Part shown: positions 44,930 through 64,000 of the stretch, piece after piece
Layout: every line of letters begins with the position of its first letter
Numbering within the stretch: the first letter of the stretch is position 1
Assembly: GCA_037043015.1 (NCBI GenBank)
Contig: CM073330.1
Span: forward strand, 5,419,263-5,483,262
Direction: 5' to 3'
Length of the DNA: 64,000 nt
Source of the DNA: Bryum argenteum
Lineage: Eukaryota > Streptophyta > Bryopsida > Bryales > Bryaceae
Position numbers and translations under genes: made by a program
Notes under the pieces: model-generated
The model's database searches: none
Told to the model about the DNA's origin: nothing
The model's input: only the letters and a program-made list of their open reading frames with translations

Positions 44930-45230
44930 CATCTACAAAGTGAAATATGGTAAGGTGTCCTATAATGGCGCAATTTTCAGCACAGAAAATCTAGAGGAAT
45001 GTTGCCAGTGCAAGCAATTTTTGTGCATGTGGAAAATTAGCAGAAAACTAGAGCAAGTGGAATCATCATTTTTCGACTCTTCTACAGTAAGTAATGAATT
45101 TCTAAAGATGGAAATATAGGTGTTCCTAAAATGGTGCCCTAAAGTGACGCCCTATAATCTTTGCAGTGTGTACATGGTACTGTTGTATGGAGAAGCTATT
45201 ATGTATGTGACAGTGAAGATTACTAGGGCT
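44930..45230 (+). repeat. Dispersed repeat (inverted relative of 40480-40730)
   Basis: Collinear in reverse complement with 40480-40730, and partly with 35485-35660. Three copies in 10 kb suggest a common nonautonomous repeat in this genome. Confidence 0.7.
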
Positions 45231-45487
45231 CCATTTTCGGCACTGCGCCATTTTGGGCTGCTCAACCATACTACAATTCAAATCGCAATTTGTATGAGTG
45301 ATTTGTGCTTTGAAAGGATTGTGGTAGGTAGGTTGGGATTGCACAAAACCTTGTAGGAGGTTGCAAACTCATCATTGATTGGTTCATTCATGCTGCCCAA
45401 GTTCAAAAAGTGCACTATTCAGGTTGCCCAAGTCCAAAAGATGGTGAGATCCAATTCCGGGCTGCTCATTGAGGAGTGGAAGGACCT

Positions 45488-59941: not shown

Positions 59942-60120
59942 AGGTATGATACTGAACAACAATGATCCTTTTCTCCCCACCCACAAATTACAAGGATCGA
60001 AGCAACTTTTCAGCAATTATGTATCGTAAATCCCACACGATGTAAGGAATTGGAACAGGTGACATTATGCGAATTTCACATCACACAATTGCTGAAAGCT
60101 TGCTTTATTCCTTGTTACTT

Positions 60121-60210
60121 GTTCGTGTACGCGAGCACCCATGCGCTGCGTGACGTAACATTTTGTAAACACTTTTGATACGCGGCGTATGGGTGCTCGC
60201 GTACACGAAC
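60121..60210. repeat. 22-bp perfect inverted repeat (hairpin)
   Basis: Arm 60121-60142 reads gttcgtgtacgcgagcaccc plus at; its exact complement is at 60189-60210, with a 46-bp loop. GC-rich arms stand out from the AT-rich surroundings. Could be a transposon remnant or a small-RNA type hairpin; no evidence decides. Confidence 0.8.
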
Positions 60211-61117
60211 CAAAGTTATCTTCAGAGCATTCTTACGTTTAAACATATATTCGCTAAAAATCTTTTCGATGTGTACTCTCGCGGTACTATAATTCTTTCA
60301 GTTTTTTCATAGTATTCGGTTTCTACGTTTACTACTGATGTACTCAATGGATTTCAGTGCGTGTAAGACATCAAAAGCGAAATTTCCGAACAGTCTAGGT
60401 TCCCGATTCTTATCGATTGTGATATAAGACTAGATGTTGATGAAGTGACCACTAAGGTGAATTCACAAAAATAACTCTCGGGGATGGAGAATGGTGTGCC
60501 GATTGCAAATTCAGTACTCACTCTTCCGTAATAGTAAATCCAGTCATTCCAATGTACACCGACATAGTTTGAGAAGTAATCACAAAATAAGCACGTTTGG
60601 TGAAAGAGATTCCGATTGTTGGATTAAAACTCTGAAATTAGTGTAATCCAAACATCCAACAAATCTACAGATACTGAGCAACAATGACAGGCGTGTATAC
60701 AATAATGTACCTGCAAGACCTGAATATAAAGATCCTGGTTCCTGGAGGATTCGAAGTCTACCTACACATCGACATCCACATGCTTGCATCGCAACTCTCA
60801 GGCCAGAACTAATTACTGATGTTACTTCCCCTCATATCACTTTGATTACTCCCATCAAGGCATCTGCTCAAGACTTGCCATTCGCAAAAGGACCTCTGAG
60901 AGGCAGGAGCGACAGTAGTCCTCAAGCCATTTGGGCAACTGACCGGCATCGTCTCCAATTAGAGTAGGGCACACTCAGAGCATGAGGAGAAAAGAGATGC
61001 GTGATTAAAGATACAACGAAGTAGGAGACTTACAACATCCCTTGACGGGAACAATGGGGGAATTCTTTCTAGGACTGGTCGACTAATCAAGGACCAAAGC
61101 AATAGTTGTCAAACACT

Positions 61118-62161
61118 CTACAACCCGCTCCTGCCCCACACGACGAGCGACAGGGAGAAGGTGAACATCACCATCAAACCTCCCCACGCCACGCCTGTGA
61201 AGTCGAAAGGAGCTGACTCCGCGGCTGCCAACGCCGGCGTGGCGATGGCCATCATGGACGCTGAGGCTGCGGCCAACATGGCGCGCCGCTGCTGGATGGC
61301 CTGCTCGCTCTTGGACTCGCGCTGTGCAGCTACGCACCTCACTGGTCCCATCTGCACACCGAAGGCATCGAAAATTCCAATTCAATTACGGAACACCACA
61401 AAATCTCATTCCTCGCCATCACAAAACCAAGGCTAATTGCACAAGGAGTTCATAATGTGGAAATCCAGAATTCCGAAACTCGTCACAATGCGGTTCAAAT
61501 TCACCAATGACGACATCTCTACTCTCCAAATCGAAATCTTAAGCAGTAGCACAATGGACCGTCAATTCAAAACTCCGGACCCTACATCCCGCCGAGATTT
61601 GAATAAGCTCGCTCAATTTCATTCCTCCCATCGCTTCCAGGGCGAACAAATCAAATTCTACATTGCACTGCCAGGATTGAGCCCTACAAGCACCTAATGC
61701 AATACTATGTAAGAGTACCTATTCTCTTCAAGTGAACACAAGATGGTGTTCGATTCCTTCCAATTACAACGGAATAAAAACTAACACCAGGCTATACAAT
61801 CTATAGTACAAAGCATACAAAGGGTACTGCTGCCACTCCTCGACATTCCTCCCGATGACAGACTTTCAAATCTTACGTAATTTGCTTCCAATGGGTGCTG
61901 TCTGACATTCCTTCCAACTCCAGAAGAGGTGATAGAAACTTACACCTAACGTCATCAATGCAGATTCTATACAAGAGGGAAACTCATACGAGCAAGGGGC
62001 GAAACCCCAGAGAATGTAGGCACATTCGGGGTGGGGTTGACGAGGGTGCAATGTGGTACCTGGACGGTGGAGACGGAGGCCGTGCGCAGGGCAGGGAGGC
62101 GCTCCCCAGCCAAAGAGGCGCAGGCGCCGACGACGGGAGCAGAGACGGCGAGGGCGGCCAT
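61118..62161 (-). CDS. PETN: Nuclear-encoded cytochrome b6f subunit PetN with plastid/thylakoid presequence
   Basis: PetN is a one-helix subunit at the edge of the thylakoid cytochrome b6f complex, which carries electrons from plastoquinol to plastocyanin. Two exons, 62161-62060 and 61351-61118, join in phase 0 across a 708-bp GT/AG intron, giving 111 residues. The last 29 residues, [20 protein letters not shown] followed by LVVWGRSGL, are nearly the whole plastid PetN with changes mainly in its first half. Before it lies a presequence in two parts: residues 1 to about 60 are Ala/Ser/Arg-rich with almost no acids (stroma import), and the next part ends IATPALAAA, a hydrophobic stretch with an Ala-X-Ala thylakoid peptidase site. 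Cleavage there would leave about 32 residues with the N-terminus in the lumen, as for native PetN. petN is plastid-encoded in most plants; loss from the plastid has been reported in some mosses. An intron, a presequence and a GC-rich first exon make a random plastid insertion unlikely. Confidence 0.93.
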
Positions 62162-64000
62162 GGCTGCTGCTGCGATTGAGAGCTGGGAAAGATTGGAGAG
62201 TTACGGCTGCGAATTGGCAGCGATAGCAGCGTATGATGCAGCAATTGAATTGATCGGTAGGGGGAGGTGGGGCGTGTGCTGCTCTCAATCGCTGTGGAGA
62301 GAGCGAGGCGCGTGTGAGGTGATAGGCTTTCCCTTATCTTGTGTGGATTGCGAGGGCCCTCGGCCCTGCCTTTCGTTGCTCAGTTCCTCACTGGATAACC
62401 CGCGTCCTCACTCCTCCGTCTCCCTTTGGCCTCACTTTTCTCCCTTTGGCTTTTGATACTTTTCTCATCCATTGATTGATGTAGTAAGTTATTTGCTTTG
62501 AGTGATTTTATTTTATTTGGGGTTAAAAAACTCAGGATAATTAGGTGCAAACCCTGATTTGTGTAGTCCACAACCGTTTTTGAGGGGATTAGAAACTTCT
62601 AAAATTTTGTCGCTCTTATGACCCAAAATGGGCATTTGTAATTCGGGGCAGCTTAGATGAAGGGGTTGTAAGTAATATTTATGCCTAATATTTATACTAG
62701 GTGTTAATTATATTGCAAAATCTACGTGGTAAATTTTGCAAAGTCGAATTCCAGTTTTTAAGTCTTTTAGGACAATCCTTGGATTGGGACCCGAAATGGG
62801 GTAGTTGAACAAAGTTTTGTTTTTTACAAAAAAATAAATGGAAATATGTTAATTACTAAATCACTACTTAAGTTCCAGCGTGACTCGAGTCAAAAACTTC
62901 ACCAAATCTACAAGGGCGGCCTCCAACTTTGGAATACGGGGACTTCATGCATCGCGTTATCGAACCTTATTATCTTAATTAAAAGAGTATCTCTATCTCT
63001 ACTTGTGTTTGTCCCTTTTTAATTCGTTGTGTGTTAGAATACAAGGCAAATGAAGGGTTTCAGGGCAGCCCTTCATTCCAGTTCGCCCATATTCTATGAA
63101 GGCTCTCTAGGGCAGCCCTTCATTTTTCATATTTTCCATTGTTTTCAAACTTTTTGGACGCTCAAATTAAAAACATTGTTAAGATTACTTAAGTACCACA
63201 TAATCATAAGGGATAAGTGTTGAGACCTCCACAATTTGTGTACCTCCACCTATTGCAAGCCTCCTCAATACTGTAGTGAACCTCCACATTATAAAATGAA
63301 TAGGTAACTCAACTCTTTTTCATAATTTCCAAACAGGCCTTATATTTGCTTCAGTATGAAGTTCTAATGCATGGTCAAAGTTCACTGGCCAATTTTTTTT
63401 GAAGTGATCAGTCTTCAAAAATTCACTGGATCTGTGTGTGGAGCTTCTCATACTACTGCTCTAGAAGATTCTGGGGTCGCGATTTTGCAAATTGTTTTCT
63501 GAGATATATATAAAAGAGTGTATAGACTAGCTCATTTTGGGATCTCAGAAAATGACCTGAAATTAAATTATCATTTTTAACATAGAAGCTTATCCTCATT
63601 TCCTACATCCACACAATCATGCCTCGACCCATAAACATCGAGCAGAAAACATAAAGCAGAAAAAAGAAACAAACAAACAATGTCAAAAGTGGACAAGTGA
63701 GAAATTGAATTGGAATAACATCAATCACGATACTGTAATAGGTATCCAAAAGTGACTGCCCTCTGAGCAGAAACCCCAAAATGTACAGTACAGCCTCACA
63801 AGCCCTGGAGTGAGAGAAACAATCCTGTCTGTGACAGAAAGGTGACCAATTTTTTTCCCCACAACTACCCACAATTCGCAACTACTGTTTAAAAAGGTCA
63901 ATCAGCTACTGATTTGCAACAACTGGAATTAGTTAGTTAGTGCTCCACTCAATACTACTCTACCTAAAATACATATACATGATAGCACCCTATGAAGCAC
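62162..64000. other. PETN 5' flank, then intergenic to the window edge
   Basis: The first 280 bases upstream of the PETN start are GC-rich and probably promoter and 5' UTR. The rest is AT-rich. About 62630-62940 is the second copy of the dispersed repeat at 27590-27900. A short gggcagcccttcatt motif occurs twice at 63060-63130. No gene is supported up to position 64000. Confidence 0.5.
62630..62940 (+). repeat. Dispersed repeat, copy 2
   Basis: Collinear, diverged match to 27590-27900; shared blocks include gcctaatatt, ttttgcaaagtc and tctacaagggcggc against tttacaagggcagc. Its limits are not exact. Confidence 0.5.

Follow-up and report, generated by a model that had tools for sequence, protein, structure and literature searches.

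A nuclear petN gene in the moss Bryum argenteum with a presequence and intron that appear to derive from PsbTn

Our analyses indicate that the moss Bryum argenteum carries what is most likely a working nuclear petN gene, formed when a copy of petN captured the presequence of PsbTn, a nuclear-encoded photosystem II protein. The gene was found in a 64,000-nucleotide stretch of contig CM073330.1 (hereafter the window), which sits on a 16.8-Mb contig of an assembly of 258.8 Mb in 25 contigs. It lies on the minus strand, running from window position 62161 to 61118, and has a predicted product of 111 residues (Table 1). The original prediction, made from the letters of the window, had the coordinates and splice sites right; the strand, which it did not give, is minus. 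The targeting region upstream of the PetN part, put there at about 80 residues, counts 82. The 708-bp phase-0 intron that it placed inside this region was also borne out as a predicted intron, with GT-AG ends (5' GTACCA, 3' GTGTGCAG) and open exons on either side. The exon boundaries are independently supported because the intron of the PsbTn gene has the same position.

Table 1. Parts of the nuclear petN gene, in window coordinates
Feature	Position	Strand	Size	Content
Exon 1	62060..62161	-	34 codons	First part of the predicted stromal transit peptide; homologous to PsbTn exon 1
Intron	61352..62059	-	708 bp	Phase-0, GT-AG; site is the PsbTn intron site
Exon 2, whole	61118..61351	-	77 codons + stop	
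Exon 2, presequence part	61208..61351	-	48 codons	Predicted end of the transit peptide, RR and hydrophobic lumenal signal to ATPALA, spacer AAESAP
Exon 2, PetN part	61118..61207	-	29 codons + stop	Matches Pfam PF03742 and PDB PetN chains

That the last 29 residues are PetN, as had been claimed, was confirmed by both profile and structure-database searches. Residues 87-111 of the product match the Pfam PetN family (PF03742) with an E-value of 7.5e-11 and 42.2 bits against a cut-off of 20.3, the match spanning positions 5-29 of the 29 in the profile. Each of the five distinct PDB sequences listed for the product at E<=1 is a PetN chain, with E-values from 2.6e-8 to 1.3e-3; they include the spinach chain 6rqf_P (E 2.6e-8) and the Chlamydomonas chain 1q90_N (E 6.1e-6), and 21 of 28 residues are identical to those of spinach PetN. 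The NCBIfam PetN models scored under their cut-offs (NF002709, 30.6 bits versus 63; NF011331, 25.8 versus 56). Since these are equivalog models that NCBI applies to bacterial and archaeal genomes, the shortfall is not counted against a plant PetN. A 29-residue PetN query, its first residue written as M, found a single place in the 258.8-Mb assembly (E<=10; one match among the best candidates scored), and tblastn with spinach PetN matched the gene in the window at E 8.4e-12.

The petN gene lies in nuclear DNA, to judge from the size of its contig, its GT-AG intron and its flanks, which are not plastid-like. When the window was compared by blastn with C12, the plastid contig of the same species, none of the 19 matches at E<=1 fell within positions 60000-63500 around the gene; the best of them covered 31 bases (E 0.012). 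Land-plant plastid petN adjoins trnC. The gene order on C12 is psbM, ycf66, trnC-GCA and rpoB, as named by Pfam (PsbM, E 2e-19; Ycf66_N, 1.4e-18; Rpb2 domains, to 1.2e-116) and by ARAGORN, which called the tRNA-Cys. No petN was found between ycf66, trnC-GCA and rpoB, nor in the rest of the readable sequence, where tblastn reached an E-value no better than 2.1 for the spinach PetN query and 0.79 for the moss one, in both cases with unrelated residues. C12 comprises 114,600 bases; 22,500 of these are N, and the readable 92.1 kb have 25.0% G+C. Some moss plastomes are described as 123-125 kb long; C12 is shorter and may lack further stretches beyond the 22.5 kb of N. The absence of plastid petN holds for the expected place and the readable part of C12 and not for the whole plastome, and a relocated copy could lie in unreadable or missing plastid stretches.

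The unreadable part of C12 also leaves some room for the view that the window holds a non-functional or recent plastid insertion, open by chance, while a plastid petN still works. We regard this as very unlikely. In addition to the absence of plastid-like flanks, the reading frame has an in-frame bipartite presequence and splice sites in common with PsbTn, and its codons have nuclear composition while the encoded residues stay close to those of spinach. In the PetN part, 26 of the 29 codons end in G or C, compared with 568 of 3247 (17.5%) in six long stop-free frames of C12. The combination of nuclear-type third positions with a protein close to spinach PetN points indirectly to long-lasting selection on the nuclear gene, which, judged by its sequence, is most likely a working one.

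When residues 1-88 of the product were used to search the assembly, five places came up at E<=10. Two are the petN exons themselves, two are exons of a gene on contig C3 (E 9.1e-9 and 0.045), and the fifth lies on contig C4 (E 1.7). The C3 gene has an exon 1 of 34 residues and a 496-bp intron, followed by MGPVRCAAKSDAEIVNRRAMIAAAAASVLAIATPAFAVTEGTPQNAGFGLQDQVKKGSKEAKKKFANICVSQPTASICHG. It matched no Pfam family above any cut-off. It matched ten PDB sequences at E<=1. The five top-scoring ones carry the name photosystem II 5 kDa or Tn protein (E 3.8e-8 to 8.7e-5); the remaining five have E-values of at least 0.42 and other names. On the strength of these matches we identify the C3 gene as PsbTn, the photosystem II 5-kDa lumenal protein. 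It is the sole full copy of PsbTn found in the assembly, the second of two matches being the petN presequence. PsbTn has been described as an extrinsic lumenal photosystem II subunit that occurs in land plants and contains two conserved Cys, and its sequences are also reported from mosses and one streptophyte alga (PMC12661325).

The C3 gene and petN are alike in presequence, intron position and lumenal signal and differ in the mature part, which is a lumenal peptide with two Cys in the one and PetN in the other. The alignment of their presequences occupies 82 columns and contains a single gap of 5 residues; identity is 46 of 77. The likeness extends to the DNA, where blastn gave three matches. 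One runs through exon 1 up to the 5' splice site, with 76.5% identity over 115 columns (E 8.9e-17); another covers the 3' splice junction with the opening codons of exon 2 (E 7.8e-5); and the third is the lumenal signal, with 80.3% identity (E 2.9e-10). Intron position and phase are identical in the two genes (VQ|MGPVRC). The intron bodies and untranslated flanks gave no blastn match better than E 0.49. Beyond the predicted lumenal cleavage site 2 of 6 residues are identical, and homology to PsbTn past this point is not demonstrable. The petN presequence is homologous to that of PsbTn, a nuclear gene for a plastid protein, and the homology of both exons together with the shared intron site suggests that petN was joined to a duplicated PsbTn presequence, intron included. 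Presequence and intron thus look inherited from the PsbTn gene. The original prediction of an acquired two-part presequence with an intron is supported by the sequence, with the amendment that the probable source is PsbTn and not a gene of the PsbW, PsbX or PsbY kind.

Alanine-rich thylakoid presequences have a composition in common, and the resemblance might be put down to convergence among them; PsbW of the same genome, its exons joined approximately (locus L028), scored 68 against petN, where 5000 shuffles reached at most 66. The local alignment of petN with PsbTn scored 208, a level far above the 70 that 5000 shuffles reached at most, and the likeness at the DNA level, with the intron at the same place and in the same phase, makes convergence extremely improbable. 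A different concern is that PsbTn was not the donor, either because a third gene gave its presequence to both or because petN gave it to PsbTn. The donor search covered one genome, and exon 1 of PsbTn has no significant match to the PDB PsbTn precursors 8c29_U, which we take to be that of spruce, and 9i4t_U. With the lumenal signal it is otherwise: phmmer aligns this part of the C3 protein, RR included, with both precursors, so that PsbTn seems to have had this signal for a long time and is therefore the likely donor. In the whole genome, moreover, the presequence led to just these two genes and the place at E 1.7. Both versions of this concern seem to us unlikely. The argument for the direction from PsbTn to petN, which we consider likely, is the wide occurrence of PsbTn among land plants (PMC12661325).

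The age of the capture is uncertain. By the Nei-Gojobori method, the petN and PsbTn presequences differ by a dS of 0.70 and a dN of 0.31 (77 codons, 64 synonymous sites), and a dS of about 0.7, at high GC3, is lower than expected for an old moss event. The capture could be younger than the petN losses of mosses might suggest, or divergence could have been slowed by base composition or gene conversion. A separate observation concerns the 5-residue insertion of petN relative to PsbTn, which creates the hexamer AQRESK a little downstream of where the stromal peptidase may cut (window positions 61310-61327, minus strand). The same hexamer occurs at a like place in PsbW (L028, positions 1546-1563), with 15 of 18 bases identical, and may mean either that the presequence is a mosaic or that the motif is common in moss transit peptides.

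Under the capture from PsbTn, the following course of events is proposed. A copy of plastid petN would have reached the nucleus, where a second copy of the PsbTn gene had arisen by duplication, and the two would have fused in frame, the joint falling at the first petN codon or immediately ahead of it. From PsbTn the fusion would have retained the transit peptide, the intron and the lumenal signal, whereas the sequence for mature PsbTn would have gone from the copy. The petN precursor would now enter the chloroplast and be cut by the stromal peptidase after VRC (residue 40), which closes residues 1-40 and which we presume to be a stromal-peptidase-like site. Insertion as a hairpin round a short acidic loop would follow, its two limbs being the RR-led hydrophobic signal (residues 56-76) and the helix of PetN (about 87-105), and the thylakoid peptidase would cut after ATPALA (residue 76). 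The product would be a 35-residue PetN, its N-terminus lumenal with a few extra residues, which would join the cytochrome b6f complex. Both cleavage sites are predicted from known motifs and from the alignment with PsbTn, in which ATPALA of petN is matched by ATPAFA; in petN the acidic spacer AAESAP and then PetN follow. Windows of 13 residues with a hydropathy above 1.3 start at residues 58-60, 63-67 and 85-95, with another group at 1-7 in exon 1, which is hydrophobic at residues 1-19. Given this hydrophobic exon 1, the hairpin is not the sole reading that hydropathy allows, and from the sequence we would put the chances of hairpin insertion at about even.

Precursors of PsbW, PsbX and PsbY carry a two-part presequence before a thylakoid membrane protein, and the petN precursor resembles them, as it does the CFo-II precursor, in this respect. 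All four proteins have been described as spontaneous inserters, PsbW and PsbX inserting without energy or translocases, whereas petN keeps an RR and a presequence that appears to be PsbTn-derived (PMC8790069 for the former). The gene may be as described here and its signal may still use the twin-arginine (Tat) translocase in place of the unassisted hairpin. The RR stands directly before the hydrophobic stretch in petN (QRRAML) and PsbTn (NRRAMI) alike, an RR is likewise present at the signal of the two PDB PsbTn precursors, and the donor PsbTn is itself a lumenal extrinsic subunit (PMC12661325). On the other side, a short acidic loop flanked by two hydrophobic segments corresponds to the plan of PsbW and PsbX, for which insertion without translocases is described (PMC8790069), and the RR of petN may be mere inheritance from the donor. 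We consider the Tat route a serious possibility, though short of an even chance. The delivery originally envisaged, like that of PsbW, PsbX or PsbY, therefore stands as far as the two hydrophobic segments round a short loop are concerned, and is called into question by the RR. That the PetN N-terminus needs to reach the lumen by such a route is something we infer; in the parts of the literature consulted we found no statement on the orientation of PetN itself. A requirement of petN for a two-part presequence is not proven, since PetM, another nuclear-encoded small b6f subunit, has no lumenal signal by eye, and the presequence may simply be what the donor had.

Transfer of petN in mosses was already known; what our analysis adds is the probable capture of the presequence, with its intron, from PsbTn. 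The plastome of Tortula ruralis was reported to lack petN in 2010, when transfer to the nucleus was suggested (PMC2841679). A 2014 paper noted that Tetraphis has no plastid petN while Physcomitrella keeps it, discussed repeated loss, and left the patchy pattern (Tortula and Tetraphis versus Physcomitrella) open (PMC4035505); a 2024 paper describes nearly all mosses as lacking petN (PMC11202921). For Sanionia uncinata a petN gene in the nucleus has been reported, with a PCR check, and the identity of its PetN to the plastid versions of P. patens, A. thaliana and A. formosae is 79%, 76% and 59%, respectively (PMC5877570). Sanionia has a plastome without petN and one nuclear PetN homologue, to which the single PetN match and the lack of petN in the readable part of C12 correspond in B. 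argenteum. The predicted move of petN from plastid to nucleus, which our results support, had already been published for a moss (PMC5877570). The petN passages of that paper mention no intron, no petN lumenal signal and no PsbTn, and its statement on a signal peptide concerns nuclear rpoA (PMC5877570). Among the titles and abstract openings listed from open-access literature we found no description of a PsbTn-derived petN presequence, a weak indication of novelty. In Chlamydomonas PETN is nuclear-encoded, as petN is here, but the lineage is green-algal; there PETN is written beside PETC and PETM (PMC10022631).

Presequence capture as such is known for accD, rpl32 and rps7 (PMC8429499). SODcp-RPL32 and other angiosperm captures placed a transit peptide on a ribosomal protein (PMC8429499), whereas petN would have received a two-part lumenal presequence together with its intron, and is a single-span subunit of a different complex. 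The gene suggests that a lumenal address label from photosystem II was put to new use on a cytochrome b6f subunit that sits in the membrane, and the re-used PsbTn signal offers a natural test of the thylakoid routes open to such signals. More speculatively, one PsbTn presequence capture may have predated the repeated plastid petN losses and enabled all of them, with a Tat-type signal now inserting a single-span protein; we put this forward as a tentative and rather doubtful proposal. If it is true, mosses whose plastids lack petN should share the PsbTn-petN junction, and some mosses with a plastid petN should still carry it. A recognisable donor junction can in any case serve as a marker for the history of petN transfer in mosses: if distant species have the same PsbTn-petN fusion, petN was transferred once and lost from plastids many times, and if their presequences differ, it was transferred more than once.

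Two other genes were considered as donors and rejected. For PsbW, the Pfam hint was under the cut-off (E 0.67, 10.4 bits versus 25.4); the genome search located PsbW at L028, L029 and L030, of which two lie on C3 at a distance of about 12 kb and the third on contig C7, and the one compared with petN was L028. PetM, present at one place (L031), has by eye what looks like a plain transit peptide at its N-terminus. Segmental duplication likewise found no support in the 28 kb around PsbTn that were compared with the window. There were 12 blastn matches at E<=1e-3; the petN-PsbTn exons account for 2 of them, and the other 10 resemble dispersed repeats. A few weak matches appeared at the protein level (E 0.007-0.01). 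No flanking genes shared by petN and PsbTn were found in these 28 kb of C3, a span too small to exclude a duplicated block. A scan for bacterial-type promoters and terminators gave one match each, against 1.3 and 1.6 expected, and is uninformative for a nuclear gene.

Two repeats were seen in passing. A 325-bp stretch of the window (44946-45270) is 97% identical to one in the PsbTn neighbourhood (L026, 6800-7124), with further related pieces, and is probably a recently active dispersed repeat. Downstream of petN, positions 60121-60210 hold an inverted repeat with two 31-nt arms that are 94% complementary and 28 nt apart, possibly the remnant of a small transposon.
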